DNA of 64,000 nucleotides. Source: Shewanella violacea DSS12. Its GTDB lineage: Bacteria; Pseudomonadota; Gammaproteobacteria; Enterobacterales; Shewanellaceae. The position numbers and the translations under genes were made by a program. The stretch lies in NCBI RefSeq assembly GCF_000091325.1, contig NC_014012.1, positions 3,604,500 to 3,668,499 of the forward strand, read 5' to 3'. Numbering within the stretch: position 1 is the first letter of the stretch; every line of letters begins with the position of its first letter. The notes beneath the pieces were generated by a model. It searched no databases and was not told the origin of the DNA. It saw only the letters and a program-made list of their open reading frames with translations. This document shows, one piece after another, positions 23,746-55,935 of the stretch.

Positions 23746-26340
23746 ATGAAAAACCACATATCACCCCTGGGCGATTTTCGCCTTAAACCTCTTCTATACC
23801 GCAGTATAATCGCATCTAGCCTGTTACTTCCCGGCATCAGCCAGGCAGTTGATTGTAATAGCCTAGTAATTTGGAGCGGCGATCAAGCCTATAATGGCGG
23901 CGCTCAGGTTCAACATCTGGATATCGCTTACTCGGCTAACTGGTGGACCAAGGGCAACGACCCAGAAACAAGATCTGCCCCCTACCAGGAATGGACTAGT
24001 TTAGGTACTTGTGATGGCGGCCCGACAAACACCCCACCTCAGGTATCACTTACCTCTCCGTTAAATAACGCTTCTTTCAGTGAAAATGACAGCGTTGTCA
24101 TCAGCGTTAATGCCAATGATAGCGATGGCAGTATTGTCAGTGTCGAGTATCTGGTGGATGGCATCTCCATTGGAATGAGTAACCAGGCTCCCTATAGCCT
24201 AAGTTGGGCTGCGGCCATTGGCAATCACCAGATTAAAACCATAGCCACTGACAATCTTGGTGCCAGTGCTACTGCCATAGTCAATATCAGCGTGGCTTCG
24301 GTGGCCGGCAATATTCCGCCAAGCGCCACACTAACCAGCCCCACAGCCGATTCACAGATAACTGCCGGTGCTATAACCTTACTCACAGCCGATGCTGCTG
24401 ACAGTGATGGCGCTATCACTCAGGTCGACTTTTATCTCGATGATGTCTTACTCTCAAGTGTTGCCAGCGCACCTTTTCAGCATAACTGGACAGCAACAGC
24501 AGGACTCCACAGTTTCAAGGTCAAGGCCACAGACAATGACGGCGCAGTAACATTCAGCTCAGCTGTTCAGGTCAATGTGAGTGGCGGCCAAGTAGGTGGT
24601 GGCTGTGCTGGCGTGCCTGCATTTGTCGCGGGCACTAGCTATCAGAGCGGCAATCAAGTCGAAAATATCAACCATAAGTATCGTTGTGATGTGGCCGGTT
24701 GGTGTTCATCTAATGCCGCCTGGGCCTATGAGCCTGGCGTCGGTGATCACTGGAGTGATGCCTGGAGCGATCTTGGTATCTGCGCCATAGTACCTGAAAT
24801 TACCATCACCTCACCTGGGAGTAATGCCCTAGTTCTGGCCAATGCCAGTGTCGATTTCAAGGTCGATGCCAGTGATAGTGATGGCAGTGTGACACAGGTA
24901 GAGTTCTTTGCTGCTGGAGTGAGTCTAGGTGTCGATTCAACCGCGCCCTACTCAACCAGCTGGACTGCAACAAATACGGGTGACATTCAACTCAAGGCTG
25001 TAGCCACAGACAACGAGGCGAATACGGCCGAAGATACCTTGTTAGTCACAGTAAGTAACGAGCCAATCGTCGCGAGTATCAGCGCCACAAATGCAAATGG
25101 CACAGTCACAATAGGAAAAACCGTTAATTTTGCCGCCACCGCCTCTTCAGTGGTGGGGGAAATCACAGGTATCGCGTTTATGGTTAACGGCGCAGCCCTT
25201 TCCAGTGACAACAGCCAACCTTACACTGCGAGCTGGACGCCGGGGTCTATGGGGAGTTACTCCATTACTGCTAAGGCCACAGACTCTCAAGGTAACAATG
25301 TCACCAGCTCGGCGCTCAGCATCAATGTCATCAGTGCCCCTGTGGGTCAGACTCACAAGTTGATTGGCTACTGGCATGACTTTGTGAACCCAGCTGGCTG
25401 TCCTATGCCCCTCAAAGAGATCTCATCGAAATGGGATGTTATCGATATCGCCTTTGCCGATAACGATAGAAACTCCAACGGCACTGTGCACTTCAATCTG
25501 TTCAGTGGTGATATTCACTCTACCTGTCCAGCCCTAGATGCCAGCGAATTTAAGCAAGATATGGCGGCGCTTCAGGCACAAGGTAAGATAATCGTGCTCT
25601 CTTTAGGTGGCGCCGAAGGTAATATCACCCTCAATACCGATGCCGATGAAGCCAACTTCGTCTCCAGTCTGACTGCGATTATTGCCCAGTGGGGCTTCGA
25701 TGGTTTAGATATCGATCTCGAGAGTGGTTCCAACTTGCTCCATGGCACCCAGATCCAGGCCAGATTACCAAGGGCGCTGAAGCAGATTGAAACCAATATG
25801 GGCGGCGACATGTACCTCACCATGGCACCAGAACATCCCTATGTTCAAGGTGGTATGGTTGCCTACTCGGGGATTTGGGGCGCTTATATCCCACTCATCA
25901 ACGAGCTAAGAGATACCTTAGACTTGCTTCATGTTCAGCTGTATAACAATGGTGGACTCTCTAACCCTTACACTAACGGCGCTGCACCTGAAGGCTCAGT
26001 AGACATGATGGTGGCCTCAGTCAGGATGTTAGTCGAAGGCTTCGAACTCGCCGACGGCTCACAATTTTTACCTCTGCGAGACGATCAAGTGGCCATAGGC
26101 TTACCTTCGGGGCCCGCTTCTGCCAACTCGGGTCAGGCGCCGACACAGAACATCATAGATGCGCTGGACTGCATCACTAAAGGCGTCGCTTGTGGCAGCA
26201 TAGTACCGAGTCAGCACTTCCCCAATTTTGGCGGCGTGATGACCTGGTCAATCAACTGGGATAAGTATGATGGTTATAATTTCTCGGGACCCATAGGCGA
26301 TAAAATTGACGCCATGAACGCAATGAACGCCGGGAATTAA
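23746..26340 (+). CDS. Secreted modular GH18 chitinase
   Basis: This 864-residue exported enzyme cleaves chitin. A signal peptide ends at ISQA (residue 34). The order is then a CBM5/12-type chitin-binding module (36 to about 90, with W-rich ANWWTKGNDPE), two Ig-like modules (about 95-280), a second CBM5/12 module (about 285-345), two more Ig-like modules (about 350-525) and the GH18 catalytic domain (about 533-860). The active-site motif is D652-G-L-D655-I-D657-L-E659, with E659 as the acid. The Ig-like modules share phrases such as ASDSDGS and APYSxSW. The gene stands alone, and three degenerate copies of its last 60 bases follow it. Confidence 0.95.
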   Translation: MKNHISPLGDFRLKPLLYRSIIASSLLLPGISQAVDCNSLVIWSGDQAYNGGAQVQHLDIAYSANWWTKGNDPETRSAPYQEWTSLGTCDGGPTNTPPQVSLTSPLNNASFSENDSVVISVNANDSDGSIVSVEYLVDGISIGMSNQAPYSLSWAAAIGNHQIKTIATDNLGASATAIVNISVASVAGNIPPSATLTSPTADSQITAGAITLLTADAADSDGAITQVDFYLDDVLLSSVASAPFQHNWTATAGLHSFKVKATDNDGAVTFSSAVQVNVSGGQVGGGCAGVPAFVAGTSYQSGNQVENINHKYRCDVAGWCSSNAAWAYEPGVGDHWSDAWSDLGICAIVPEITITSPGSNALVLANASVDFKVDASDSDGSVTQVEFFAAGVSLGVDSTAPYSTSWTATNTGDIQLKAVATDNEANTAEDTLLVTVSNEPIVASISATNANGTVTIGKTVNFAATASSVVGEITGIAFMVNGAALSSDNSQPYTASWTPGSMGSYSITAKATDSQGNNVTSSALSINVISAPVGQTHKLIGYWHDFVNPAGCPMPLKEISSKWDVIDIAFADNDRNSNGTVHFNLFSGDIHSTCPALDASEFKQDMAALQAQGKIIVLSLGGAEGNITLNTDADEANFVSSLTAIIAQWGFDGLDIDLESGSNLLHGTQIQARLPRALKQIETNMGGDMYLTMAPEHPYVQGGMVAYSGIWGAYIPLINELRDTLDLLHVQLYNNGGLSNPYTNGAAPEGSVDMMVASVRMLVEGFELADGSQFLPLRDDQVAIGLPSGPASANSGQAPTQNIIDALDCITKGVACGSIVPSQHFPNFGGVMTWSINWDKYDGYNFSGPIGDKIDAMNAMNAGN

Positions 26341-26349
26341 TAAAACTAA

Positions 26350-26663
26350 GGATTATCACTTCTCAGGGGTATCTATATGGAGACAAAATAGACGCCATGA
26401 ACACCGAGAATTAACAATTAGCGTTCTTAACATTTCGATGAGTGACTACCCATATATTTTATTATCACACATGGGTTGTCACTTCTCGGGGACATCTATA
26501 TTAGGCGATAAAATAGACGCCATGAACGCCGAGAATTAACAAGGAATTTAATTAGTAATATGTCCAACATCAGTGGCAATCTATCTGTTTTAAATTATAG
26601 GTTGTCATTTCTCATGGATATCAATTCAGAGACAAAATAGATGCGATGAACGCCGGGAATTAA
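26350..26663 (+). repeat. Three decayed copies of the chitinase 3' end
   Basis: The last about 60 coding bases (FSGPIGDKIDAMN...GN stop) recur at 26350-26414, 26473-26539 and 26600-26663. Each ends like the gene, GACGCCATGAAC-x-CCGxGAATTAA. Copy 2 still reads HFSGTSILGDKIDAMNAEN stop in one frame; copies 1 and 3 have indels. The last two spacings are about 125 bases. Confidence 0.85.
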
Positions 26664-26962
26664 TAGAACAAGGGGCAATCAGTAACGGGAAACTTGCAGG
26701 CAGGCTATCTATCAGGTCTATCCAGACACAAAAAACTCAATAATGGCTAGCTAATGACCAGCTAAAATCTGTAATCTCGTTTTTATCTCTATTCTCTATC
26801 TATTCTCTATCGCTTCTCCATCTCTTCGCTATTTAAGGCCTCTTCATGCCTAGATGCCCTGTTAAAGATAATGCTAGTATCTTTCCAGCTTGTCACTATT
26901 TGACTATGACGCTATGTGACTATGACGCTAAACATCAATAAGAAAAAAACAGTGAGAGTCCA
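26664..26962. other. Non-coding stretch with short repeats before the phosphatase gene
   Basis: It holds a run of TCTATTCTC-like units (about 26786-26815) and a 14-base direct repeat TGACTATGACGCTA at 26901 and 26917 (16-base period). I see no gene. Confidence 0.5.
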
Positions 26963-28078
26963 TTGAATAAAATCTTAATCTTAGCCACATTAACCTTGAT
27001 GCTTTCTACTCAGGTCAGCTTTGCAGATGCAAATGAAGCAAAATATAAATCAACACCAGCACTAGGTAGCATCTTCGATGGGCCTTACCTGTTTGATCAG
27101 AGTTCAAATCAACAAACACGCCAGGCTTATTGGATTTGCGCCAATGCGTTATTAACCACAGCCCTAGATAAGGGTCAGCTGCACCGTCCCAGTGGATGTG
27201 GCCAATTACCCGAGCCAACACTCAACCCAAAAGCTAAAAATATAGCAGCTAACACATTTACACATGTCAGCAAAATCGTCGCACTGAGTGATGTCCATGG
27301 CCAATTTGATGTGCTTATCACACTGCTTAAAAACCAGAAGATAATCGATGAGTATAATAACTGGGCCTACGGTACCGGCCATATGGTGATGACGGGAGAT
27401 ATGTTCGACCGTGGTCATCAGGTCAACGAGGTACTCTGGTTTATGTACAAACTGGATAAACAGGCCAGTGATGCCGGTGGAAAACTGCACCTGTTAATGG
27501 GTAACCATGAGCAGATGGTGATGCGCGGTGACTTAAGATACGTTAACGAGCGCTATCACACCGCAGAAAGGCTACTGGAACGCAGCTACGATGAGCTTTA
27601 TGACAAAACCAGCGAGATTGGACAATGGCTGCGCAGCAAGCACACCATAGTAAAAATCAACGACAGCCTGTTTCTCCATGGCGGGATCAGTGGTGAGTGG
27701 GTCGACAGAAAGCTGACTCTGGATAAAGCCAATCAAATCTACCGCGCCAATATCGATAAGAGCAAAGCTGAGATAAAGAGTGATGACCTGCTTAACTTCC
27801 TGTTTTTAGGCGAGGGGCCGACCTGGTTCAGAGGCTATTTTGAAGATGATTACCAAGAGAGTGAAATTGATAGGATATTGGCATATTTCGATGTGAAGCA
27901 TATCGTCGTCGGCCACACCTCACAGACTAGAGTCTTAGGGCTATTTCACAACAAGGTATTAGCGGTCGATTCGAGCATCAAGAATGGCAAGTCCGGCGAG
28001 CTTTTGTTAATCACCCCAAATGGAGATCAGGACACATTAACCCGTGGCCTATACGATGGCAGTCGCGTGACTCTATAA
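26963..28078 (+). CDS. Secreted metallophosphatase, Shewanella-like phosphatase family
   Basis: This 371-residue protein has a signal peptide (ILATLTLMLSTQVSFADA), so it is periplasmic. The PPP-type metal-binding motifs are D110-V-H-G-Q, G-D146-M-F-D-R-G, G-N181-H182-E and VGHTSQT near residue 318, with a DDD-free tail. Shewanella-like phosphatases hydrolyse phosphotyrosine in vitro; the natural substrate is not known. The start is TTG at 26963, because it gives a complete signal peptide; the first in-frame ATG (26999) would cut into it. Confidence 0.88.
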   Translation: MNKILILATLTLMLSTQVSFADANEAKYKSTPALGSIFDGPYLFDQSSNQQTRQAYWICANALLTTALDKGQLHRPSGCGQLPEPTLNPKAKNIAANTFTHVSKIVALSDVHGQFDVLITLLKNQKIIDEYNNWAYGTGHMVMTGDMFDRGHQVNEVLWFMYKLDKQASDAGGKLHLLMGNHEQMVMRGDLRYVNERYHTAERLLERSYDELYDKTSEIGQWLRSKHTIVKINDSLFLHGGISGEWVDRKLTLDKANQIYRANIDKSKAEIKSDDLLNFLFLGEGPTWFRGYFEDDYQESEIDRILAYFDVKHIVVGHTSQTRVLGLFHNKVLAVDSSIKNGKSGELLLITPNGDQDTLTRGLYDGSRVTL

Positions 28079-28139
28079 CTGACCTAGAGACTAAAAATAA
28101 CAGGCCTAGGAGCTTGCAGCTGCAGGCTCATACTCAAAG

Positions 28140-28526
28140 TTAAAGATGAAGTAATATAGAAGTCTGCATCTTCTTAGTCATATTACCCACAACCAGCTTG
28201 AATGAGTTATCTATCATGCGCTCGATTTCCCCTCGTGGGATCGAACCATCTAAGATAATGGTATTCCACAGCGCCTTGTTCATATGGTAACCGGGAATAA
28301 CCCCAGGAAAGATGTCCCGCAAGATTGCGGCTTCATCCGGGTCACACTTAAGATTCATCCACCAGTCCCTGTTTCCCTCATTATCACCTTTACCCATCTT
28401 GCCTATGGCCAAGGTGGCGAACATTTTTTTCTTTACCTTAAACACATAGACATCTGCACCGAAGGGGAAATCCAATACCGTTGCAGGCTTATTTAACAGG
28501 TATGTTTTAGCAGTTTCAAAATCCAT
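28140..28526 (-). CDS. MmcQ/YjbR family protein
   Basis: This 128-residue protein matches the MmcQ/YjbR (DUF419) family in length and sequence: PFGADVYVFKVKKKMFATLAI, NLKCDPDEAAILRDIF and PGYHMNKALWNTIILDG. The fold resembles a DNA-binding CyaY-like fold, but no function is established. It is convergent with the phosphatase gene and divergent from the DUF3300 gene. Confidence 0.92.
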   Translation of the reverse strand: MDFETAKTYLLNKPATVLDFPFGADVYVFKVKKKMFATLAIGKMGKGDNEGNRDWWMNLKCDPDEAAILRDIFPGVIPGYHMNKALWNTIILDGSIPRGEIERMIDNSFKLVVGNMTKKMQTSILLHL

Positions 28527-28624
28527 TTAGGCCCATCCCAGGGTACAAAAAACACTTTCAGCTTACGTTCATCTTCGCCTCTTTATAATCGGTACACAAT
28601 CAAAAATAGCTGTTTGGAGACGAT

Positions 28625-30088
28625 ATGAAGATATTCACTCGACAGAATCGAACTCGGGGGATTTTGGCCCTGTGTATGATTCTCTGTATTACTCTGTTTG
28701 CTAGCCTCTCAAAAGCACAAGCCGAGTCTAATGGAGCTGAGGCCAGCTTCAGTGAAGCCGAGCTGGCACAGATGCTCGCGCCTATCGCCCTGTATCCTGA
28801 CAGCCTGCTGACCCATATTCTTATCTCATCAACCTATCCGCTAGAAATCGTCCAGGCAAAACGATTACAAAGTAAAAATAAGTTACTCCCCATCGAGCAG
28901 TTGATGCACAAAGCCGAAGATCAGGACTGGGACCCAAGTGTCACCGCCCTGCTGGCCTTTCCTACCGTGCTCGACAAGCTCAGTGAGGACTTAGAGTGGA
29001 CACAAGATTTAGGCGATGCCTTCTTACAAGATGAAGAGAAATTGCTGGCCAGCATTCAAACCTTAAGGCATCAAGCCGATGCCGCTAATAGCCTAGCCGA
29101 AATGGAAAATATGTCGGTGAGCCGCGTCGATAACCAGATCATCATAGAGCCAATTCAGCAAGAGATTGTCTACGTGCCCTATTACGATCCAAGACTGGTA
29201 TATGGTCACTGGGCCTGGTATCGCTACCCACCGGTATATTGGGCACCTTCCCCTTATTATGTTCGTCCACACCATGGTCATTTTTATTGGCACAGCGGCG
29301 TTCATATCTCATTTAACTACTACTTCAGCGCCTTTAGTTGGCATAAGCATCATGTGGTGGTTGTTCACCATACTAATTCCCGTCATTACCGATATCACCG
29401 CCCTATCGTGACCAGCCATGGGGCGCAGAGATGGCACCATAAACCCGCACATCGCCGCGGCGTTGCCTATCGCAGTCCAGCGCTGAAACACAGATACAAT
29501 AGTCATCGCCCGAGCACGCAATATAGCAAGCAAGTACGACAGGGCGAAAGTCATGGTATCAAGCGTGGGAGTACAGCTAATAAGCTTCACTCAAAATCTA
29601 CCCACACTAAACGCGCAACTGGCGTGAGTAATCTGAGCCATTACAATAAGCAGATAGCGAAACAGAGGGAACAGAAATTTGCCAGTCGGATGCATCACAA
29701 GAGCAAGGTACAGGTACAGGTACAGGTCAGTGATCCTGGGAGAAACAAGCACAAGCTAAGTAATAAACTAGATCGCACTCAAGCACAGAAAAGATTGAAA
29801 CAAGCATCAAGCAAGCCATCAAATTATAACCGGGTTCAAACTCAATCGAGTAACAAGCCGAGTCAGAAGCCAAGTAACAAGGCGCGCAGTAATTTAAACT
29901 CACAACAACACGAGGCAAAAAATTACAACCGGGTTCAAACTCAATCGAGTCAAAAGGCGTACGAGAACAAGACATCTCACGCCAGAACCCAGCAAGCCAG
30001 GACGTATTCGACGAGACAAGCAAGTCATGAGACTCAAGTGAGAAACTTATCTCAGCTGAGAAGCTCCGTCTCAGCCTTAGGTGCATAA
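28625..30088 (+). CDS. DUF3300 protein with a basic, repetitive C-terminal tail
   Basis: This 487-residue exported protein has a signal peptide ending near KAQAESN (about residue 34). The DUF3300 domain follows (about 40-250): LAQMLAPIALYPDSLLTHILISSTYPLEIVQA and PIQQEIVYVPYYDPRLVYG are typical, followed by an aromatic and His-rich segment (YYVRPHHGHFYWHSG). Residues about 270-487 are low-complexity, basic and rich in Ser, Gln and Asn, with NYNRVQTQSS occurring twice. The function is unknown. Fifteen-base repeats begin directly after the stop. Confidence 0.9.
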   Translation: MKIFTRQNRTRGILALCMILCITLFASLSKAQAESNGAEASFSEAELAQMLAPIALYPDSLLTHILISSTYPLEIVQAKRLQSKNKLLPIEQLMHKAEDQDWDPSVTALLAFPTVLDKLSEDLEWTQDLGDAFLQDEEKLLASIQTLRHQADAANSLAEMENMSVSRVDNQIIIEPIQQEIVYVPYYDPRLVYGHWAWYRYPPVYWAPSPYYVRPHHGHFYWHSGVHISFNYYFSAFSWHKHHVVVVHHTNSRHYRYHRPIVTSHGAQRWHHKPAHRRGVAYRSPALKHRYNSHRPSTQYSKQVRQGESHGIKRGSTANKLHSKSTHTKRATGVSNLSHYNKQIAKQREQKFASRMHHKSKVQVQVQVSDPGRNKHKLSNKLDRTQAQKRLKQASSKPSNYNRVQTQSSNKPSQKPSNKARSNLNSQQHEAKNYNRVQTQSSQKAYENKTSHARTQQARTYSTRQASHETQVRNLSQLRSSVSALGA

Positions 30089-30092
30089 TTAC

Positions 30093-30182
30093 AAGAGTAC
30101 TAATCTCAAGAGTACTCATTACAAAAGTACTAATCTCAAAAGTAATAGCTATAAAAGTAATAGCCAAAGAAGTAATCATCGG
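30093..30182 (+). repeat. 15-bp minisatellite directly after the DUF3300 gene
   Basis: Six units of exactly 15 bases (first unit AAGAGTACTAATCTC) begin five bases after the stop codon. In the +1 frame they read as pentapeptides: KSTNL, KSTHY, KSTNL, KSNSY, KSNSQ, RSNHR, and the frame stays open to a TAG near 30204. This looks like a lost C-terminal extension or a spreading repeat. Confidence 0.85.
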
Positions 30183-30226
30183 TCTCACACTAAACAGAGA
30201 GATTAGCCGAGACTCGAATCAAAACA

Positions 30227-30258
30227 AAAACAGCGAGCTTAGGCTCGCTGTTTTGTTT
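30227..30258. terminator. Bidirectional terminator between DUF3300 gene and rsuA
   Basis: AAAACAGCGAGC (30227-30238) and GCTCGCTGTTTT (30243-30254) form a 12-base-pair stem with a four-base loop. A-runs and T-runs flank both sides, so it can stop transcripts from either convergent gene. Confidence 0.9.
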
Positions 30259-30333
30259 TATCTGCATTGTTATGGTTTGCATCTATAGCTTAGGATTAAG
30301 GCCAGCCCTCGAGCCTAAAGCCAAAGGCGAATA

Positions 30334-31050
30334 TCAGATAACCGACTCATAGCAGTTAAAGCCACTGACTTCATCTGCTGTCAGGTGCCGCCACTCACCA
30401 AGCTCTATATCCAAGCTCAGCTTGCCTACTTGCTGTCGATGTAGGCCGACCACTCGATTGCCCACGGTAAAAAACATACGTTTTACCTGATGATAGCGTC
30501 CCTCGCTGAGGGTTAACAACACCTGATGGGGAGTAATAACTTCAAGCTTAGCCGCTAGTGTCAGTTTTTTTTCGCCCTGTAACTGCAGCCCCTGTTCGAA
30601 TCTGGATACCAGCTCATCGATATCCCCATCTTCGATAGGATCTCTCAGAGTCACCCTATAGGTTTTCTCACAGTGATACTTAGGATTGATAATGTTAAAC
30701 GACCAACGTCCATCATCTGTGATCAATACAAGTCCCGTAGTATCGGCATCCAGCCTGCCTGTTATATGCAGGTCCTCGGCTCTGTCCACCTGGATATAAT
30801 TCATTACCGATGGGTAGTCGCCATCGACATTGGAACACAAGGTATCGATTGGCTTATGCAGCATGATATAACGCGAGGGCCTGGCAACTAGGCGCCGCCC
30901 AGCTAACATGATGCAATTGTTCTCATGCACTTGCGTCTGGGCCGTGACAATAACCAGCTCATTAACCCGCACTTGCCCCGCTTCAATCAAGTCAATTGAT
31001 TCGGCACGGCTAAAATCGGTACTCTTGCAGAGGAATTTGTCGAGGCGCAT
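30334..31050 (-). CDS. rsuA: 16S rRNA pseudouridine(516) synthase RsuA
   Basis: RsuA converts U516 of 16S rRNA to pseudouridine. The 238-residue protein starts with an S4 RNA-binding domain (MRLDKFLCKSTDFSRAESIDLI). It has the catalytic motif GRLDADTTGLVLITDDG and the C-terminal LSEGRYHQVKRMFFTVGN, close to the E. coli enzyme along its length. It is convergent with the DUF3300 gene. Confidence 0.93.
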   Translation of the reverse strand: MRLDKFLCKSTDFSRAESIDLIEAGQVRVNELVIVTAQTQVHENNCIMLAGRRLVARPSRYIMLHKPIDTLCSNVDGDYPSVMNYIQVDRAEDLHITGRLDADTTGLVLITDDGRWSFNIINPKYHCEKTYRVTLRDPIEDGDIDELVSRFEQGLQLQGEKKLTLAAKLEVITPHQVLLTLSEGRYHQVKRMFFTVGNRVVGLHRQQVGKLSLDIELGEWRHLTADEVSGFNCYESVI

Positions 31051-31469: not shown

Positions 31470-31484
31470 TGAGATTGATTATCA
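31470..31484 (+). promoter_or_regulatory. Fur box upstream of the TonB receptor
   Basis: TGAGATTGATTATCA matches the 7-1-7 Fur consensus TGATAATNATTATCA in 12 of 14 fixed positions. It lies about 140 bases before the receptor start, so iron repression is likely. Confidence 0.75.
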
Positions 31485-31544
31485 ATAACATCGCGGTAAA
31501 ATTTATACCACACTCACATAAACACCTTATTACTGCGCGTAAAC

Positions 31545-31560: not shown

Positions 31561-31620
31561 ATATTCATCTAATTTGCTTAGGGAAAGGCACCGCACAGAT
31601 AGAGGTTTTAGGCTTACTCT

Positions 31621-41620: not shown

Positions 41621-42811
41621 ATGAAAACAATGCCAAATCTCTGGCTTATATTGGCTTTAGTGATGTTTCCACAAGTTGTCGAAACCATCTATAGCCCGGC
41701 CTTACCTCACATATCACACGCGTTTGGGGTGACAGCCCAAACAGCCTCACAGACAATATCTGTGTATTTTATCGCTTTCGCCTTCGGGGTACTTGTTTGG
41801 GGAAGGCTAAGTGACACCTTAGGTCGTAGAAAAGCCATGCTGTTTGGATTAGTCACCTATGGTTTAGGTGCCACACTGGCTATTTTTGCAACCAGTTTTG
41901 AGACCCTAATGTTGGCCAGAATCCTATCGGCTTTCGGTGCAGCCACAGGTTCAGTCGTGACCCAGGCTATGCTACGAGACTGCTATAAAGGTGCCGAACT
42001 GACTAAGGCATTCTCACTGATCACCATGGGTGTTTCTATCAGCCCGGTTATTGGATTATTGAGTGGCGGCATTATCGTGACTCATTTCGGCTATAGCGGA
42101 ATATTCTGCAGCTTGCTGATGCTAGCCATCGCACTTTGGCTGCTGGCTATTCTCACTCTGTCTGAAACTAATCCAGACATGAGTGCTAACGCCGAATCAG
42201 ATAAAGGACCCGAAATTGGCATTTTGCAGCTGGCTAAACAGATGAGCCGAGACACTAAGTTATGGTGTAACGCTGGCCTGATAGCAGCCTTTAATATCAT
42301 GCTATATAGCTACTACTCACTGGGTCCCTTTATCTTTCATGATTTAGGCATGAGCTCGACTGATTTTGGCTATAGCGGCGTCCTGTTACCCATAGGTACA
42401 ATACTGGGAAGCTTGCTGAGTAAACGTCTGATATCTAAAGGCTGGCAGTCACACCAATTGATCTCGGCCGCCTCAGTGCTGGCCTTAATTTTCGCCTTTG
42501 GTGTCTGGTTACTCAGGTCTGATCTGCTGTTCTTAATACCCATGATAGGCATGTTACTTTGTAGTGGCATGGCATTACCCAATATCTTTAGTAAAGCGTT
42601 AGAAAATTATCGACACGCAGTAGGCACAGCTGGCGCCCTGTTTGGGTTAACTTATTATTTACTGTTCGGTGCGGGACTAGCGCTCACAGGGATATTACAA
42701 GACCTGGGGATGGCACTCATCTTGAGTGCAAGCTTATCTTGCTTACTCAGCGTAAAACTAAACCTTGGCGTTGTGGCAAATAAGTTGTTGCAAGAAAGTT
42801 CTTGCAAATAA
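41621..42811 (+). CDS. Bcr/CflA family multidrug MFS transporter
   Basis: This 396-residue transporter has twelve hydrophobic segments. It shows the Bcr/CflA N-terminal pattern (YSPALPHISHAFGV) and the MFS loop motif WGRLSDTLGRRKAM, with RILSAFGAATGSVVTQAMLRD in the fourth segment. It likely exports a drug or related compound by proton antiport. It has its own copy of the araC-type divergent promoter upstream. Its final about 110 coding bases are the founder of a 152-bp tandem array downstream. Confidence 0.93.
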   Translation: MKTMPNLWLILALVMFPQVVETIYSPALPHISHAFGVTAQTASQTISVYFIAFAFGVLVWGRLSDTLGRRKAMLFGLVTYGLGATLAIFATSFETLMLARILSAFGAATGSVVTQAMLRDCYKGAELTKAFSLITMGVSISPVIGLLSGGIIVTHFGYSGIFCSLLMLAIALWLLAILTLSETNPDMSANAESDKGPEIGILQLAKQMSRDTKLWCNAGLIAAFNIMLYSYYSLGPFIFHDLGMSSTDFGYSGVLLPIGTILGSLLSKRLISKGWQSHQLISAASVLALIFAFGVWLLRSDLLFLIPMIGMLLCSGMALPNIFSKALENYRHAVGTAGALFGLTYYLLFGAGLALTGILQDLGMALILSASLSCLLSVKLNLGVVANKLLQESSCK

Positions 42812-43470
42812 ACAGTGCCTAAATAGTTAACTAAGCTCAAAGCTGGGATGGTAGATATCTTTAGTGCAGGCTTATCTTGCTTACTCAGTGTCAAACTAAA
42901 CCTTGGCACTGTTGCAAGAAAGCTGGTGCAAATAAGTTATTGCAAGAAAGTTCTTGCAAATAAACAGTGCCAAGATAGTTAACTAAGCTCAAAGCTGGGA
43001 TGGCGGATATCTTGAGTGCAAGCTTATCTTGCTTACTCAGTGTAAAACTAAACCTTGGCACTGTTGCAAGAAAACTGGTGCAAATAAGTTATTGCAAGAA
43101 AGTTCTTGCAAATAAACAGTGCCAAGATAGTTAACTAAGCTCAAAGCTGGGATGGCAAATATCTTTAGTGCAGGCTTATCTTGCTTACTCAGTGTAAAAC
43201 TAAACCTTGGCACTGTTGCAAGAAAACTGGTGCAAATAAGTTATTGCAAGAAAGTTCTTGCAAATAAACAGTGCCAAGATAGTTAACTAAGCTCAAAGCT
43301 GGGATGGCAAATATCTTTAGTGCAGGCTTATCTTGCTTACTCAGTGTAAAACTAAACCTTGGCACTGTTGCAAGAAAACTGGTGCAAATAAGTTATTGCA
43401 AGAAAGTTCTTGCAAATAAACAGTGCCAAGATAGTTAACTAAGCTCAAAGCTGGGATGGTAGATATCTTT
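42704..43470 (+). repeat. 152-bp tandem array derived from the MFS gene 3' end
   Basis: The founder unit is the gene end (42704-42842, 139 bases). Copies begin at 42843, 42995, 43147 and 43299 (each exactly 152 bases) and a partial one at 43451. The copies at 43147 and 43299 are the same. Each repeat contains TTGCAAGAA-AG-TTCTTGCAA, a perfect palindrome, inside a longer pair CTTGGCACTGTT ... AACAGTGCCAAG. Since 152 is not a multiple of three and stops occur, it is not coding. Confidence 0.95.
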
Positions 43471-47882: not shown

Positions 47883-47886
47883 ACGA

Positions 47887-49179
47887 TTAACGCTTCTTAT
47901 CTGTACGTCGGTTAGCATAGCTTGACTTAGCACCGTCAGAGCGACCCTTAGGCTTGCCCTTATGTTTATTGACAGGCTTTCCTTTACGTCGCTCAAATTT
48001 CTTCTTAGTGCTTGTCACATCTTGAGTCTCGCGATATCGAGCCGGCAGAGGCGCACCCAGCTCGTAACCAGGCAGAACGATGCGCGGTAACTTAAGCTCA
48101 ATCAGACTCTCAATCTCCTCCAGCATCTCCTCATCCGATGGACAGACAAAGGAGATAGCTCGCCCGGTTAAGCCTGCACGACCAGTACGGCCTACACGAT
48201 GAATATAATCCTCGGCCCCATAAGGCAGCTCTAGGTTAATCACCAAAGGCAGCGCCTGGATATCTAGTCCCCTCGCTGCTACATCTGTAGCCACCATCAC
48301 TCTGATCTTACCCGACTTAAATTCCTCTAAGGTGCGATTTCTAGCCCCTTGAGTTCTGTCACCATGAAATACACCACACTTGATGCCATCTAAGCTGAGT
48401 TCACTCTTAAGGTGCTCGGCGCTCTCCTTGGTGGTGGCAAAAACTAATACTTGTTGCCAGTTATTGCGCCCAATAAGTTCAGAGAGCAGTTCGGCTTTAC
48501 GGCGTTTATCGACCAGGTAGATCTCTTGCTCGACACTGGCAGCAGAGCGAGTCTGAGCGACATTAATCCACTGGGGAGAGTTGAGCATCTTCTCGGCTAA
48601 TAGCTTCACTGGGTCGCTATAGGTCGCCGAGAAAAAATGCGTTAAATGCTGGGATGAAACCAGAGACTTAACTTTCTCGATATCACGGACGAAGCCCATA
48701 TCCAACATTCTGTCCGCTTCATCTATGATAAGGCTAGTCACCTCAGATAAATTGAGCCCATGCTGACCAACAAAATCGAACAGTCGACCCGGTGTAGCCA
48801 CTAAGATGTCGACTCCGGCATTTAATGCCTTACGTTGAGGGTTCATGTTCGCCCCACCATAGACGGCTAACGTCTTGAGGGACGTAAACTGGCCATAGCG
48901 AGTGATATTCTCGGCCACTTGAATCGCCAGCTCGCGGGTAGGTGTCAGAATAAGGCCACGTAAACAAGGAGACTCATGGTCTTCCTTGAGTAAGCGTTCC
49001 AATAGAGGCAAGGCAAATGAGGCGGTCTTACCCGTTCCCGTTTCGGCGCATGCCATAAGATCGACCCCGGATAAAGCCAGCGGTATGACCTCAGATTGAA
49101 CCTGTGTGAGTTGCTGATAACCACATTCATCTATGGCTTGTAGCAGTAAGGGGTTCAAGTCGAGGGCGTCAAATTTCAT
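47887..49179 (-). CDS. DEAD-box ATP-dependent RNA helicase, RhlE-like
   Basis: This 430-residue helicase has motif Q (YQQLTQVQSEVIPLALSG), motif I AETGTGKT, motif II DEAD (IIDEADRMLDMGF), motif III SAT, and motif VI HRVGRTGRAG. The C-terminal 60 residues are basic and disordered-looking (RRKGKPVNKHKGKPKGR). The pattern fits the RhlE group, which works in ribosome maturation and RNA turnover. It lies next to two cyclic-di-GMP genes but no operon is obvious. Confidence 0.93.
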   Translation of the reverse strand: MKFDALDLNPLLLQAIDECGYQQLTQVQSEVIPLALSGVDLMACAETGTGKTASFALPLLERLLKEDHESPCLRGLILTPTRELAIQVAENITRYGQFTSLKTLAVYGGANMNPQRKALNAGVDILVATPGRLFDFVGQHGLNLSEVTSLIIDEADRMLDMGFVRDIEKVKSLVSSQHLTHFFSATYSDPVKLLAEKMLNSPQWINVAQTRSAASVEQEIYLVDKRRKAELLSELIGRNNWQQVLVFATTKESAEHLKSELSLDGIKCGVFHGDRTQGARNRTLEEFKSGKIRVMVATDVAARGLDIQALPLVINLELPYGAEDYIHRVGRTGRAGLTGRAISFVCPSDEEMLEEIESLIELKLPRIVLPGYELGAPLPARYRETQDVTSTKKKFERRKGKPVNKHKGKPKGRSDGAKSSYANRRTDKKR

Positions 49180-49244
49180 GGAGAGCTCGTTGGTTTAGGT
49201 AAATATAAATGAGCGCGGAGTCTACCAAAATCCGACTTCACTGG

Positions 49245-52200
49245 CTACGACGATGCCTGTTCATGTTTCATCTGTGCGATAGCGCGGATATATTTATCTT
49301 CAAAATCGGCAGCTGGGATGGGTCTAGAGAAAAGATAACCTTGACCATAGTCACAACCGGCCTTAGTTAAGATATCTCTCTGGTACTCGGTTTCGACGCC
49401 TTCGGCTATAACCGTCATGCCTAACTTATGTGCCATGACGATAATCGCCTCGCATAGTGTCACATCATCGGTATCAGATTCTAAATTACGGGTGAAAGAC
49501 TGATCAATTTTAAGATAATCTATGTCAAACTTTTTCAAGTAAGCCAGTGAAGAATAACCTGTACCAAAATCATCCAGTGAAACTTGTATTCCCGCGTCAC
49601 GATAGGCTAATAACTTCTCCGATACCCCCATGCTTGCATCCAGTAATAAACCTTCGGTGATCTCGACGCAGATACTGTTACTCGCAAGCTTTAGCTCCTT
49701 TAATTGCACGATCCAGTCTTCAAAACTATCTCCCTCGTCTCTAAACTGTACGGGAGACTTATTGATACTGATCTGCAGCTCTACACCATACTTGTCACGC
49801 CAATGTGCACACTGTTTTGCCGCTTGTGAAAACACCCAATTACCTATCTCTATAATAAGCCCCGTCTCTTCGGCAACTGGGATAAACTCGCCAGGAGATA
49901 CCAAGCCTCTTTCGGGATGATGCCAACGAATAAGTGCCTCGGCCTTATGGATCTCTCCGTTAGGCAGGTCGATAATGGGCTGATAAAAAATCTCAAATTC
50001 TTTGTTATTTACGGCTTGGCGTAAATCACGGATCAATATCATCCGATAACGCGCTTCTTCCTGCATCGAAGCCGTAAAGTAATGGAAACGATTTCTCCCG
50101 AGATCTTTAGCCGCATACATGGCCTGATCGGCATGTTTAAGTAAACTCTCTATGCTCGAAGCATCATCGGGATATAGGGTGATACCAATACTGGCACTGA
50201 TGAAGGCTGTGTCATTTCCCAGATTAAAGGGTTCAGATAAACGGGTTAGAATATTAGCCGCTACCCTATCGACACCTTTATGATCGTCGATGGCCGAAAG
50301 CACTAAAGTAAACTCATCACCTCCTAATCTGGCAACAACATCGGATTCACGTATACAGCTTTTCAATCGCTTGGCCGTTTCAACCAATAACAGATCACCC
50401 ACATCATGGCCTAAGGTATCGTTAACCTCCTTAAAATAATCCAGGTCTAGAAACATCAAGGCCAAGTGTTGCTTATTACGATCAGACTTAAGCAACTCAG
50501 TGCCCAGATATTCCAACAACATGCGGCGATTAGGCAGTCCAGTCAGAGGATCATAATTAGCCTGCTTCCAGATGATGTGCTCGGCTTGTTTTTTTTCTGT
50601 GATATCGGAGAAGAGCGCGACGCGTCGATAGACTTCGCCTCGGCTGTCATAGATGGTATTGATGGTTAACCAGACGATATATTCAGTGGCATTCTTATGT
50701 TTTAGCCAGATCTCTCCTTGCCACTTTCCGGTCTCTATTATTTGTAAGCTCATCTGCTCGAACTGAGTTTTATTGGTCCTTTCACAGCGCAAAATATCAA
50801 TATGTTGGTCGATGACCTCATTTTCGAGATAACCTGTTATCTCAGAAAATGCCGAATTGATGGTGATTATTTTACCCTGACGGTCTTGCACACTCATGGC
50901 TTCGCTGGAATTGTTGTAAACAGAAGCCGCTAGCTTTAACGACTCCTCGACGCGTTTTCTATCGGTAATGTCCGTATGGGTACCACACATACGCAGGGGG
51001 ACCCCTTTGGCATCTCTGCTGACAACCTTGCCACTGTCTAATATCCAGCGAGTCTCTCCCGAAAGCGCCACCAGTCGGTACTCGATACTATGTTGGACTG
51101 TATCCCCTTTTAGATGAGCATCAACTGAGTGCAGCACAGCCACCCTATCCTGTGGGTGTATGCCGTTTATCCAGATTCTCTCGTTGTGCTGAATCTCGTA
51201 GACACTACAACCTAGTAGCTCGGCACATCGCTCATTCCGGTCGACTTTATTGGTCTTTATGTCCCAATCCCATAAGCCTAATTCACTACTACTGAGCACT
51301 AATGCAAGCTGCTCCTGACTCGAACGCATTGCCGATTCGGCTTGCTTCTGAGAGGTAATATCCAACAAGCCTGAAATAACCAACTGCACCTTAGCATTGA
51401 CTCTTTGGCAAGCTACCGTCAGATGGGTATAGACTATGCTGCCGTCTTTAGCGACGAAACGCTTGTCCATCTCATACTCATCAATCTCACCTTGCAACAT
51501 GCGTTCAAACTGAAGTAAATCTGTTTGCAGATCTTCAAAATGTGTCATCTCCACCCAGGTTTTGGTCAACAACTCAGCCTGGGTATATTTCAGCATCTGA
51601 CATACCCTAGGGTTCACTTTTACCCAATGCTGATCTACGGTAGAAATGCCGATTCCAATATTGCCGATATTAAACTGCGAGCGAAACATAAAGTCATCTT
51701 GCAGCTGTATTTTGGCATCTCGCTCTATCTCCAGTCTTCTGCTCAGGAGTAAGCCGAGTAAAGTCGTGGCAACAGGAAAAATCAATAATACAGGCAGACT
51801 CAGCTGCATCAGAATATTAATTGCCATATCAAATGGCAGTATAAACATCCAACTTAAGCTGAGCAGGTTGAGAATAAAGCCAAACAAATAGAGCTCTTTA
51901 TAACTAAGATCGGCAATCGCCGCCTTACGCTTATAACGCCATAAGCTGCCAAATAGCCCAGATGATATGATGACCCCAAGTCCAGCCCAAACAGCAATGC
52001 CTCCCTCCATGAGTCGATAAACAGCCGCGATACTGACGGCGATAAAGGTAGGAAGAGCACCAAAAAACAGACCAGAAATAGCTAAAATGACAGAGCGGGT
52101 ATCGAAAAATACACCTGTTTGATACTCCCAAGGAGTCATCATAGTCATAATGGTGATCCCACCTATGACGGCTCCCACCGATAATCGCCATATGAAGAAA

Positions 52201-52301
52201 TATTCATTCTGCTGCTTTCTAGGCACTGCATCATAGACAAACACCATGGCTAGCAGTAACGCGGCATTCTGTACCAGGGAATAAATTACTTCTGAATCCA
52301 T
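49245..52301 (-). CDS. Membrane PAS-GGDEF-EAL cyclic-di-GMP protein
   Basis: This 1018-residue protein starts with a 5TM-type (LytS-like) membrane domain (about 1-190, including GLFFGALPTFIAVSIAAVYRL). Three PAS domains follow (about 205-330, 335-455 and 460-580, each ending in DIT-like motifs). The GGDEF domain has an intact RLGGDEF (about residue 666), and the EAL domain has KAEALIRWHHPERGLVSPGEFIP and SLDDFGTGYSSL. It could both make and degrade cyclic-di-GMP. The ligand of the 5TM domain is not known. Confidence 0.92.
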   Translation of the reverse strand: MDSEVIYSLVQNAALLLAMVFVYDAVPRKQQNEYFFIWRLSVGAVIGGITIMTMMTPWEYQTGVFFDTRSVILAISGLFFGALPTFIAVSIAAVYRLMEGGIAVWAGLGVIISSGLFGSLWRYKRKAAIADLSYKELYLFGFILNLLSLSWMFILPFDMAINILMQLSLPVLLIFPVATTLLGLLLSRRLEIERDAKIQLQDDFMFRSQFNIGNIGIGISTVDQHWVKVNPRVCQMLKYTQAELLTKTWVEMTHFEDLQTDLLQFERMLQGEIDEYEMDKRFVAKDGSIVYTHLTVACQRVNAKVQLVISGLLDITSQKQAESAMRSSQEQLALVLSSSELGLWDWDIKTNKVDRNERCAELLGCSVYEIQHNERIWINGIHPQDRVAVLHSVDAHLKGDTVQHSIEYRLVALSGETRWILDSGKVVSRDAKGVPLRMCGTHTDITDRKRVEESLKLAASVYNNSSEAMSVQDRQGKIITINSAFSEITGYLENEVIDQHIDILRCERTNKTQFEQMSLQIIETGKWQGEIWLKHKNATEYIVWLTINTIYDSRGEVYRRVALFSDITEKKQAEHIIWKQANYDPLTGLPNRRMLLEYLGTELLKSDRNKQHLALMFLDLDYFKEVNDTLGHDVGDLLLVETAKRLKSCIRESDVVARLGGDEFTLVLSAIDDHKGVDRVAANILTRLSEPFNLGNDTAFISASIGITLYPDDASSIESLLKHADQAMYAAKDLGRNRFHYFTASMQEEARYRMILIRDLRQAVNNKEFEIFYQPIIDLPNGEIHKAEALIRWHHPERGLVSPGEFIPVAEETGLIIEIGNWVFSQAAKQCAHWRDKYGVELQISINKSPVQFRDEGDSFEDWIVQLKELKLASNSICVEITEGLLLDASMGVSEKLLAYRDAGIQVSLDDFGTGYSSLAYLKKFDIDYLKIDQSFTRNLESDTDDVTLCEAIIVMAHKLGMTVIAEGVETEYQRDILTKAGCDYGQGYLFSRPIPAADFEDKYIRAIAQMKHEQASS

Positions 52302-52821
52302 GAGTCGTCGTTATTCTCTCAGCAATAATAGTAAGTTTATAACTTTGAGTGTAGCAGAAGCATACCATTAGTGAGACGGCGAAAATAAGCTCAAAACAGA
52401 AGACAAACATAAACTTGGAGTGAGTAATGACTTCCTCTACAAGTATTAAAGCATATGGCATAAGCATGTTTAACTTAGTCGTTTAGCGATATTTTCATCC
52501 CAAGGATGGGTGCCCGCCGATAAAGCACTGACCTTTAGCGATCATCCAGCCCAGACCTAGCAATCCCCGCCTAAATAAGCGCCATAAGTTACTTCTGGAA
52601 AATGACTGGATAGCGGCCTTAACTCACTCAATCCAGATGGCTGTTAGCAAAAAATATGAGTATCTTGCTAAGCTAATACTCCTAGCAAGTAATACTGACA
52701 ATTAATCCTGACAAGTATAAAGGTAAAACCTATTCGTTTTTTCTCTGTGCTAGACTAGCGCCAATTCCCAGAGGTATTGGCTCAGACAACTATGCACAAG
52801 ACAGTTCAAAGCAGTAAAGAG
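52302..52821. other. Intergenic stretch between GGDEF-EAL gene and thioesterase gene
   Basis: About 500 bases hold both divergent promoters. No gene, operator or repeat was recognised. Confidence 0.45.
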
Positions 52822-53262
52822 ATGAATTACAGCAAGACGTTCCATTTCCCAGTTCAAATCTATTACGAAGATACTGATTTTTCAGGCGTGGTTTATCATC
52901 CTAATTTCCTCAAATATTTTGAGCGAGCCAGAGAGCATGTCATAGGAGCTAATACATTAGCTTCACTCTGGAATCAACAAGGCTTAGGTTTCGCCGTCTA
53001 TCGCAGTGATATGTTGTGTCATGACGGAGTCGAGTTCGCCGATATCATAGACATCAGGACTCGTTTCTACTTCGAGAGTAAATACAGAACGGTCTGGCAT
53101 CAGGAAATTTGGCGACCTAATGGCAAAAAACCTGCCGTCACCGCCAACATAGAGATGGTGTGCATGAATAAGGCGAGGCAACTGGCACCTATGTCGGCAG
53201 ACTTGTTGGCACACTTAAGCCAGTCATTTACTGAGAGCAAGCAAACAGTGTCGACTCTTTGA
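52822..53262 (+). CDS. Acyl-CoA thioesterase, YbgC/4HBT family
   Basis: This hotdog-fold thioesterase has the YbgC signature YYEDTDFSGVVYHPNFLKYFERARE, with the catalytic Asp in YYEDTD. The ATG at 52822 (MNYSKTFHFPV) gives 146 residues and aligns with the E. coli YbgC start. Upstream starts (TTG 52777, ATG 52792) would give up to 161 residues; none has a good site. YbgC acts with the Tol-Pal cluster in other species, but no tol genes are adjacent here. Confidence 0.85.
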   Translation: MNYSKTFHFPVQIYYEDTDFSGVVYHPNFLKYFERAREHVIGANTLASLWNQQGLGFAVYRSDMLCHDGVEFADIIDIRTRFYFESKYRTVWHQEIWRPNGKKPAVTANIEMVCMNKARQLAPMSADLLAHLSQSFTESKQTVSTL

Positions 53263-53311
53263 GACTAAATGACTCTGAGTCGCCTGTTGCTTATATTAAT
53301 GTATATTAAAG

Positions 53312-54811
53312 TTACCCAGTCAGTTCCGCTTCGATCTCTTTAGCTGTCATAGGTTTAGCAAAGAGATCCCCCTGGATTTTATCGACGCCCATCTCAATCA
53401 GAGCAAGATTTACGGCCTGAGTTTCAACCCCTTCGACAGTGGTACTAAAGCCCAATCCTTGCGCTAGCTCTATGCTAGAACGCATGATATGTGCCGCACG
53501 TTTGTCGGTCAAAAGATCATCGAGAAAAGCCTTATCAATTTTAACTTCATCCACTGGAAAGTTTTTAAGATAGGCCAATGAGGAATGACCTGTACCAAAA
53601 TCATCTATGGCAACGTCTACCCCGACCTCTTTTAACTTCTCAATGGTGGCGATCGCCAGATCCATATCATCCATAAGCTGACTCTCGGTGATCTCGATAG
53701 AGAGTGAACCGGCTGACACACCATAACGACTAAGCTTATTCTGAATATCGTCGCACAATGTGGCGCTAATCATATCTTGGGTCGAAAGATTTACCGCAAC
53801 CTGAAGACGGATCCCCATGGTCTGCCAACGAGCCTGTTGAGCAATCACTTGCTCCAACGCCCACTGGCTAAGCAGCTCAATCATGCCGGCATACTCGGCC
53901 AAGGGAATAAATTCACCAGGAGAGATATGGCCTAACTCACTATGCTGCCATCTCATTAAGGCTTCTACTTGAACGTAGGTGCCCAAAGCCACATCGAGCT
54001 TAGGCTGATAAACCATGTACAGCTGACCTTGTTGGAGTGCCTTAGGCAGATCGTGAATAATACTCAGTTCACGCTGCTGACTCAGATCATCCCCTAGGGC
54101 ATAACTGGCAAAGAAAGGTTTATGTGATTTAGCCTTGATGAGGGCGAGATCTAGGCGTCTCAACAGGGAGCTAACATGGGTATGATGCAGATTGAGATCG
54201 ACAAATCCCATCTGGATCTGTACCGAAATGGTACTCCCCTCTATTTCATAGGGGACTTGAAGCCGTTCTCGCAGTGCCAACAAGCTGCTTTCACTCTGTT
54301 GCACCTCAAAGTAAATAAGAAACTCATCTTCGTTCATTCTCGCCACATATGCAGCCTGAGGTTCTGAGCCCATAAGGCGTTGCGACACTTGTCTGAGTAA
54401 CTCATCTCCTACCGAGAATCCAAATAGGTCGTTAACAAACCTAAATCGATAAATATCGATTAAGACTAAGCTACCTTGCTCTATGGTGCTCAATCCACTT
54501 AATCGTGATTTGACCCCGAGACGATTAGGAAGTCCGGTCAACTTATCTTTATCGCTTGGTCCCGGTAACTCAACGATGAACCTTTGTAGCTCATGATATA
54601 ACCGAGTATATTTCTTGGGAATCTTATCTAATGAAGTAACCAGCCCTTGAGAGTCACTCGATGGCTTGATTCCAAACTTATCTATTGGTTGCTGAATGAG
54701 GTTTATAAGATGTTGAACAAAAGCAGTTTCACGCTTTTTATGCCGGTACCAAATGATGATACCAGCGATACAAATTAACCCTAAAACCCAAAAATACCAG
54801 TCGCTTTCCAC
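53312..54811 (-). CDS. EAL phosphodiesterase with degenerate GGDEF
   Basis: This 499-residue protein has one N-terminal membrane segment (WYFWVLGLICIAGIIIWYR). The GGDEF domain (about 90-245) has RMNEDEF where RxGGDEF is needed, so it probably does not make cyclic-di-GMP. The EAL domain keeps VEALMRWQHSELGHISPGEF, the NLS and ITE motifs and IDDFGTGHSSLAYL, so phosphodiesterase activity is expected. It is separated from the HDOD gene by repeated DNA. Confidence 0.9.
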   Translation of the reverse strand: MESDWYFWVLGLICIAGIIIWYRHKKRETAFVQHLINLIQQPIDKFGIKPSSDSQGLVTSLDKIPKKYTRLYHELQRFIVELPGPSDKDKLTGLPNRLGVKSRLSGLSTIEQGSLVLIDIYRFRFVNDLFGFSVGDELLRQVSQRLMGSEPQAAYVARMNEDEFLIYFEVQQSESSLLALRERLQVPYEIEGSTISVQIQMGFVDLNLHHTHVSSLLRRLDLALIKAKSHKPFFASYALGDDLSQQRELSIIHDLPKALQQGQLYMVYQPKLDVALGTYVQVEALMRWQHSELGHISPGEFIPLAEYAGMIELLSQWALEQVIAQQARWQTMGIRLQVAVNLSTQDMISATLCDDIQNKLSRYGVSAGSLSIEITESQLMDDMDLAIATIEKLKEVGVDVAIDDFGTGHSSLAYLKNFPVDEVKIDKAFLDDLLTDKRAAHIMRSSIELAQGLGFSTTVEGVETQAVNLALIEMGVDKIQGDLFAKPMTAKEIEAELTG

Positions 54812-55130
54812 GCGAATAATTTAACTCCTCAAAGAATTTTTTTGACTACTTGGCTAGTTGGCCAAATGTTCTACTAGCCTGTAGCGTCTATAATCTCGCT
54901 TGCTAGTCGTAACTCAACTTGACTGTATGATACTTCTCAAAGAATACTTATTTGGTTAGTAGGCTAATGTTCTACTAGCCTGTAGCTCCTATAAGCTCGC
55001 TTGCTAGTCGTAACTCAACTGACTGTATGATACTTCTCAAAGAATACTTATTTGGCTGTTCTACTAGCCTATAGCGCCTATAAGCTCGCTTGCTAGTCGT
55101 AACTCAACTTGATTGAATGATACTTTTCGA
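54812..55130 (-). repeat. Reiterated 3' end of the HDOD gene
   Basis: The segment around the HDOD stop (GTTGAGTTACGACTAGCA on the minus strand) occurs at the stop (55091) and again at 55012 and 54901, spaced 79 and 111 bases. Each copy has the last about 40 coding bases (EKYHSIKLSYD stop) and about 65 bases of downstream DNA (AAGCGAGCTTATAG, GGCTAGTAGAAC). A fourth, decayed start sits at 54825-54840. These copies fill the whole gap to the next gene. Confidence 0.88.
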
Positions 55131-55935
55131 GGAATTCATCGCTGGCTAATTCATCTGGCGACACAGGTAAACCACGTTGCACGAATACATTTAACCTCTC
55201 CCCTAGATCTGCTCCAGATCTGAGTTCTCCAGTATAGAAGGCTGCGGCTCGAACAAAATCCATATAAGAGACATTATCAGGCAGATAAGAAAGATCTGAC
55301 CATCTCTCAACAACTTCCATCACTTCTGGAGCAAAGTCCCAGCTCTTCAATACTGCACGGCCTATGGGCCCCTGCATCTTACGCACTAAGCCTCTTAGCT
55401 GATCGATACTGGTAAAGAGTTCAGGCTGAGCTTCGGCTTCGGTTAATACAGGCAGAGCACCGATATTATGCACCAGTCCCGCTAAGGTTAAAGTATCGAA
55501 ACTAAGCCCACTGCCTTTATGAGACTTATTATAGATCTGTAACATGGCACAAGCTGCAGAAGTCACCTCGATAGAGGAACACCATACCTCATCCATCACC
55601 TCCCACACCATTTCATTAGTCGAAATAAACAGCTGCTCCATGGCAACTGAGGTGGCTATGGTCTTTATCTGAGTCAAGCCTATACGAGTCACTGCGCTAT
55701 TAATGTTCTCGGCTTTCACCCCACGGCTATATAAGGCACTGTTAGCCACTTTGATCATTCTTGCTGAGATGGCTGCATCTTGGCCTATGACCTCAGCAAC
55801 CTGTTTAGGGCTTGAATCGGGCCGGGATACCACCTCCTGAACTCGCATAGCCACCTCAGGTAGCGTCGGCAAAACTAGGGAGTCAGCCTTTAATTTCTTT
55901 AAAAGCCTGACCAATAGTTCATGTTCAGTAGACAT
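55093..55935 (-). CDS. HDOD domain signalling protein
   Basis: This 280-residue protein contains an HDOD domain (LPTLPEVAMRVQEVVSRPDSSPKQVAEVIGQDAAISARMIKVANS, shown in pieces over 22-75, and AGLVHNIGALPVL near 160). The family resembles HD-GYP phosphodiesterases but lacks their catalytic residues and acts in regulation of motility, attachment or stress. The ATG at 55935 (MSTEHELL) follows GGGAG by five bases; the TTG at 55971 is not supported. Its last codons are repeated downstream. Confidence 0.9.
   Translation of the reverse strand: MSTEHELLVRLLKKLKADSLVLPTLPEVAMRVQEVVSRPDSSPKQVAEVIGQDAAISARMIKVANSALYSRGVKAENINSAVTRIGLTQIKTIATSVAMEQLFISTNEMVWEVMDEVWCSSIEVTSAACAMLQIYNKSHKGSGLSFDTLTLAGLVHNIGALPVLTEAEAQPELFTSIDQLRGLVRKMQGPIGRAVLKSWDFAPEVMEVVERWSDLSYLPDNVSYMDFVRAAAFYTGELRSGADLGERLNVFVQRGLPVSPDELASDEFLEKYHSIKLSYD

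Follow-up and report, generated by a model that had tools for sequence, protein, structure and literature searches.

Repeated gene tails in Shewanella violacea DSS12: a recurrent, genome-wide pattern that may mainly be what selection leaves of tandem duplication

Why should unrelated genes of one bacterium carry extra copies of their own 3′ ends directly downstream? The question is raised by a stretch of 64,000 nt of Shewanella violacea DSS12 (NC_014012.1, positions 3,604,500 to 3,668,499; the whole stretch is called the window below, and window features are given in its coordinates). An earlier note had claimed that the tails of a chitinase gene, a Bcr/CflA transporter gene and an HDOD gene are each repeated downstream, that the copied piece straddles the stop codon in all three, that both strands are involved, and that the three genes share one process, perhaps a common mechanism acting at transcript ends. 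Open reading frame (ORF) and repeat coordinates bear out the descriptive part of this account: the copied piece includes the last 47 (chitinase), 105 (transporter) or 56 (HDOD) coding nucleotides, together with the stop codon and DNA beyond it, and two of the genes lie on the forward strand and one on the reverse strand. The genes and their arrays are as follows (CDS, coding sequence):

23746..26340, forward strand: chitinase-like gene whose tail is repeated (ORF call; Pfam GH18 and Big_7)
26294..26681, forward strand: chitinase tail array, the last 47 nt of the CDS and three degenerate tail copies
41621..42811, forward strand: MFS (Bcr/CflA-like) transporter gene whose tail is repeated (ORF call; Pfam MFS_1)
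42707..43470, forward strand: Bcr array, the last 105 nt of the CDS and downstream DNA, in units of 138 and 152 bp
55093..55971, reverse strand: HDOD-domain gene whose tail is repeated (ORF call; Pfam HDOD)
54847..55148, reverse strand: HDOD array, the last 56 nt of the CDS and downstream DNA, in units of ~100 bp

The tail-like copies of the chitinase gene occupy 26343-26414, 26468-26539 and 26592-26663, and the starts of successive tails are spaced by 74, 125 and 124 bp. The Bcr tail recurs with a 138-bp period first and a 152-bp period thereafter, up to 43470; its copies are ~93-97% identical, and its own locus is the sole occurrence of the unit in the genome. (The Pfam basis for this gene is MFS_1, and the Bcr/CflA name is to be read as "-like" only.) Copies of the HDOD tail follow at a period of ~89-102 bp, reaching down to 54847.

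The wider occurrence of such arrays was assessed in a sample of 60 spread-out 20-kb stretches plus the window, amounting to 1.264 Mb of the 4.96-Mb genome (~25%), with a near-tandem array defined by a gap of at most 60 bp, a unit of at most 400 bp and a score of at least 45 bits. Fifty-nine arrays were found, of which 26 straddle a stop codon (STOP arrays, one of them spanning two stops), 22 are purely intergenic, five span a start codon (START arrays), four are interior to genes and two span a start as well as a stop (BOTH type). Two of the STOP calls are doubtful, one because of its low similarity (L011 2853-3034, with 66% identity and 46 bits; L-numbers denote sampled stretches or loci) and one because it lies at a stretch edge with 11 coding bases (L023). 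With 26 of 59 arrays in a quarter of the genome straddling a stop, the earlier note was right that the process is recurrent: the gene-tail arrays are the outcome of one recurrent process that is general in this genome. First-order Markov shuffles, one for each of 21 stretches (464 kb), yielded no pair of repeats that reached the search threshold with at least 30 columns and a distance of at most 700 bp, and the arrays of the window are therefore not due to chance. Among the open-licence papers searched, no title or abstract start dealt with this array pattern in Shewanella.

Unit lengths across the arrays range from 36 to 338 bp, with a median of 116. In the 22 STOP arrays that have genes on both sides, the unit includes 31-151 coding nt (median 75.5) and reaches 2-166 nt past the stop (median 45.5). 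Comparison of the 55 non-interior arrays with one another (1485 pairs) gave 12 matches, all of them between intergenic arrays; no STOP array matches any other array. The gene calls on which these classes depend were checked on E. coli, where 81 of 84 stops and 64 of 84 exact starts were recovered with 6 extra calls, in a control that omitted 7 annotated genes under ~60 aa and genes cut by stretch ends and that kept one interrupted gene.

The earlier note had proposed a scan that sets stops against starts and gene interiors; the sampled 1.264 Mb holds 26 STOP, five START and four interior arrays. For a measured expectation, units of the observed lengths were placed at random on the same gene map, each array being collapsed to one unit. 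Interiors hold 4 of the 59 arrays against 0.68 of random placements. Tandem gaps hold 14 STOP, 10 intergenic and 2 START arrays, where the expected shares are 0.228, 0.541 and 0.231, and under five other detection settings (uncollapsed coordinates) the difference between START and STOP gave p=0.004-0.023. Arrays also become sparser within 100 nt of starts. Arrays would be thinned out in this way, within genes and near starts, if harmful placements were selected against.

Convergent gaps, which are free of promoters and have two stops and no start, give a different picture. STOP arrays make up 8 of 16 arrays there against an expected 0.465 (p=0.81, dispersed repeats included), and 7/8, 8/11 and 8/12 in convergent gaps of at most 250, 400 and 600 nt, where 0.83, 0.74 and 0.64 are expected. 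Pooling with two relatives (G003 and G010; G020 is a third Shewanella relative, and G000 denotes the present genome) gives 9/18 against 0.49, again with dispersed repeats included. Over all versions of the test the STOP excess in convergent gaps has p=0.06 to 1 and is not significant. These gap tests used 47 of the 59 arrays and omitted the interior and BOTH-type arrays and those without a gene on both sides in the stretch.

The explanation to which we give about even credence is that the gene-tail arrays are mainly the survivors of a genome-wide tandem duplication that is filtered by selection. Duplication would hit segments of 36-338 bp (median 116) anywhere in the genome. A duplication that runs from the last codons of a gene to a point past the stop would leave the gene intact, with the extra copies lying downstream, while one within a gene would break it and one at a start codon would disturb the promoter and the ribosome-binding site. 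As the unit length is close to that of an intergenic gap, a harmless placement would often straddle a stop. From two copies onwards, multiplication would proceed by slippage or unequal exchange, in which the gene's own tail would sometimes take part. Purifying selection would be the probable reason why arrays are scarce within genes and around starts, with slippage or unequal recombination as the probable copying step.

Several observations weigh against this explanation, and some of them turn on a dispersed repeat that, whole or in pieces, is shared by 8 of the 22 intergenic arrays:

L091:6117-6244, L026:5795, L106:12111, L109:12322, L107:9279, L090:7800, L085:5750 and L081:16699: intergenic arrays with the dispersed repeat

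The L091 copy of the repeat finds 26 matches here, compared with 9 in G003, 11 in G010 and none in G020. None of the three core arrays with the repeat is matched by a non-interior array of these relatives. The eight arrays may not be local duplications of unique DNA, and the gap tests were rerun without them (39 arrays used) or without only the three whose unit is approximately the repeat itself, a post hoc step that takes out only intergenic arrays. With all eight dropped, STOP arrays account for 8/12 in convergent gaps (expected 0.47, p=0.25), for 8/8 in convergent gaps of at most 600 nt (expected 0.65, p=0.057) and for 20/23 where the distance is at least 100 nt to a start and at most 200 nt to a 3′ end (expected 0.52, p=0.0006). 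With only three dropped, the corresponding figures are 8/15 (p=0.80), 8/11 (p=0.76) and 20/28 (p=0.059); with none dropped, they are 8/16, 8/12 and 20/30 (p=0.10). The convergent test is itself weak, since under a twofold preference for stops a count of at most 8 of 16 would still turn up 19% of the time. In tandem gaps at least 100 nt from a start, a STOP excess appears in every version, with 12/19 when none is dropped (expected 0.27, p=0.001) and 12/18 and 12/16 when three or eight are dropped (p down to 0.0001). Boundaries lying 50-100 nt inside the CDS are also over-represented, with 13 where nearby bins with a similar expected number have 4 and 3, a comparison made post hoc. Upstream-reaching promoters or missed genes may contribute to the excess in tandem gaps.

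The presence of the dispersed repeat in so many intergenic arrays, together with the rerun tests, weakens the case for selection and raises that for a process at gene ends; survivorship as the whole answer is weakened by these reruns and by the tandem-gap excess. On the earlier note's alternative, that repeats are equally common throughout non-coding DNA, the two kinds of gap divide, with no significant excess of STOP arrays in the convergent ones and a clear excess (12/19) in the tandem ones. The tandem-gap excess combined with the weakness of the convergent test leaves selection as the main explanation and not the whole of it, and an added bias towards gene ends is possible.

Such a bias would follow if events where genes or transcripts end (collisions between replication and transcription, stalling of the polymerase at terminator hairpins, or R-loops) made tail duplications more frequent, in addition to selection; we consider this possible, though on the unlikely side. 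It would account for the surplus of STOP arrays that tandem gaps show at a distance from starts (p=0.001 to 0.0001) and for the one seen within 200 nt of 3′ ends once all eight arrays are dropped, and, by eye, the Bcr array and the array at L091 45-315 end in a hairpin arm that resembles the start of the unit. The convergent gaps, with no significant excess, speak against it, as do the orientation of the genes and the rarity of hairpins. With the origin placed near 0 and the terminus near 2.46 Mb from GC skew, 17 of the 26 STOP-array genes are co-directional with replication, as are 588 of 989 genes overall (p=0.69); in view of this absence of a head-on bias, head-on replication conflict was set aside. 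The earlier note had offered replication-transcription conflict as an example. Of the 26 STOP arrays, 3 have a terminator-like hairpin, in one case inside the unit, compared with 179 of 806 genes that have one within 150 nt; the scan was a simple one and missed the Bcr hairpin. Slippage at terminator hairpins is suggested by eye at the Bcr junction and at L091, but as a general cause it is not supported by this count. Of the note's account, the recurrence of the process is borne out; the common mechanism at transcript ends that it proposed is favoured by the tandem-gap excess and disfavoured by the convergent gaps and by the lack of head-on bias. A rather unlikely but more far-reaching version is that gene ends in this lineage might be true duplication hot spots on a scale of ~100 bp beyond anything selection leaves, through a process that operates where transcription or translation stops, with the arrays as a store of former C-termini open to exchange with the gene.

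The history of the three window arrays bears on the question of exchange. Each of 4 orthologues (88-90% identity) has a single Bcr tail; in G003 an unrelated-looking repeat lies ~0.8 kb beyond it. Within the window, four Bcr copies (42893-43440) carry an insertion that is peculiar to them and then encode the ending QCQDS, and the gene itself now has another ending; QCQDS is also the ending in three of the four relatives, the fourth having LCQDS. No HDOD tail array was seen in the 6 orthologues that were read, nor at the HDOD tail in 63 named Shewanella loci, mostly from drafts, which can collapse repeats; S. benthica is among the named relatives. These Bcr and HDOD results fit arrays born on a single lineage and count in favour of the duplication explanation. 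The chitinase array has a counterpart in G003 (L059), where the gene tail is followed by three copies spaced by 74 bp; in G010 no such array was detected. The comparison with other Shewanella for which the earlier note had called therefore has a split outcome, with the chitinase array found again in G003 and the Bcr and HDOD arrays not found in their 4 and 6 orthologues. The chitinase array is the older one. Because the G003 gene tail is identical to the first copy over 36 nt and the later copies differ, an exchange of sequence between gene and array is suggested in that genome.

Such an exchange would lend some substance to the view that STOP arrays merely stay recognisable for longer, one copy being held by coding constraint and remaining exchangeable with the others, whereas the copies of an intergenic array all drift. 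The Bcr locus argues the other way, as it is the gene tail and not the copies that has departed from the relatives, and we regard this explanation as doubtful.

The genome is also rich in arrays, at about double the density of two relatives. There are 46.7 arrays per Mb here, compared with 25.0 in G010, 27.5 in G003, 20.0 in G020, 24.0 in E. coli K-12 (250 kb) and 6.5 in the 63 named loci, which are mostly drafts. For STOP arrays the densities are 20.6 here, 7.5 in G010, 5 in G003 and 0 in both G020 and E. coli K-12, with a single STOP array in the 1.236 Mb of named Shewanella loci; the excess here over G003 and G010 together has p=0.009. Non-interior arrays number 43.5 per Mb against 18.75 in G003 and G010 combined (p=0.003; p=0.004 against G020 and p=0.05 against E. 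coli), and 37.2 per Mb (p=0.019) when the eight dispersed-repeat arrays are removed from this genome only. The four non-interior arrays of E. coli include a tRNA cluster and, judging by their sequence, REP and CRISPR repeats.

A candidate cause is the loss of exonuclease VII, a nuclease that would stabilise repeats. The gene for its large subunit, xseA, is interrupted here (locus L254, G000:C1:1581259-1582555) and open in all 59 other Shewanella genomes sampled, and in E. coli a stabilising effect of such nucleases on tandem repeats is reported to have been described by Feschenko, Rajman and Lovett in 2003. A loss of ExoI, RecJ or SbcC was rejected, as their frames are open in all four genomes compared (G000, G003, G010 and G020), although SbcC of G000, G003 and G010 scores below the curated cut-off while forming one open frame of 1023-1026 aa. 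By eye, the xseA translations show a single frame change and are otherwise undecayed. The interruption is therefore recent, unless it is an artefact of sequencing, and it fails to account for arrays that are old or shared: many of the arrays here have an identity of only 70-90%, and the chitinase array is also present in G003, whose xseA is open. Loss of xseA would in addition leave the position at stops unaccounted for, and it is improbable as the reason for the abundance of arrays.

It is quite improbable, too, that the arrays are selected as functional elements of the 3′ untranslated region, such as terminator or RNA-stability arrays. One array, L110, has a terminator-like hairpin in each of its two units, as this idea would predict, but 22 of the 26 STOP arrays lack a perfect hairpin of at least 7 bp in the part scanned, no sequence is common to the STOP arrays, no Rfam family reaches the gathering score anywhere in the window, and no counterpart of the Bcr or HDOD array was found in the relatives read. 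Copying back of reverse-transcribed mRNA ends by a retron or other reverse transcriptase, for which the earlier note had suggested a check, is very improbable indeed: the genome has one RVT_1 match (at 3218054, far outside the window), in a gene (L249:886-2403, ~3217685-3219202) that PADLOC matches best to RT_UG4 (387 bits), a DRT-type model, so that the one reverse transcriptase found resembles a defence enzyme; arrays also span starts and intergenic DNA, and a reverse transcriptase is present in 20 of 40 genomes sampled in the order.

The arrays can be set beside known kinds of repeat. Like bacterial intergenic minisatellites, or variable-number tandem repeats, they consist of imperfect head-to-tail units of tens to a few hundred base pairs with point changes between copies, and their unit lengths lie in the ~10-400 bp range of that class; unlike such minisatellites, 26 of the 59 begin inside the last codons of a gene. 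REP and BIME elements also place repeated units just after genes, REP being one palindromic family spread across the genome. A single family at many loci is not what is seen here, as the STOP arrays share no sequence and the Bcr unit is confined to its own locus. The rtT repeats of E. coli, in the tyrT operon, are downstream tandem units in which the 3′ end of a tRNA gene recurs; that is one locus in a tRNA operon, whereas the present arrays are found at many unrelated protein genes. The tandem repeat regions of Borg elements are, in the available part of their description, independent and recent in origin, with perfect units of 18-21 nt, 43-65% of them within ORFs and with unit lengths divisible by three (PMC9879509). 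As far as that part goes, the likeness lies in independent, recent origin and the difference in short perfect units, about half of which are inside ORFs.

Two further near-tandem repeats of the window belong to the other classes of the scan:

29794..29959, forward strand: near-tandem repeat within an ORF, one of the four interior arrays
58140..58276, no strand assigned: purely intergenic near-tandem repeat, a comparison case

Elsewhere in the sample, two large arrays lie outside genes or nearly so (L103:8477-9592, with a 177-bp unit and 96% identity, and L023:1-778, with a 77-bp unit and 90% identity), and a long array within a large ORF (L016:2912-4975; unit 162 bp, best offset 312 bp) perhaps represents the repeat domains of a surface protein.

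Collectively, the pattern is real and genome-wide and is made of an ordinary kind of sequence, and for the most part its position is the one expected if only harmless placements survive, possibly with a bias towards gene ends on top. A striking shared position can thus come largely from survivorship when the unit length is close to the length of intergenic gaps, and this genome, with ~20 stop-straddling arrays per Mb, provides a measured case. The STOP excess that remains in tandem gaps makes a hot spot at gene ends directly testable. The arrays also record the drift of gene endings, since a former ending can persist in the copies after the gene has lost it.

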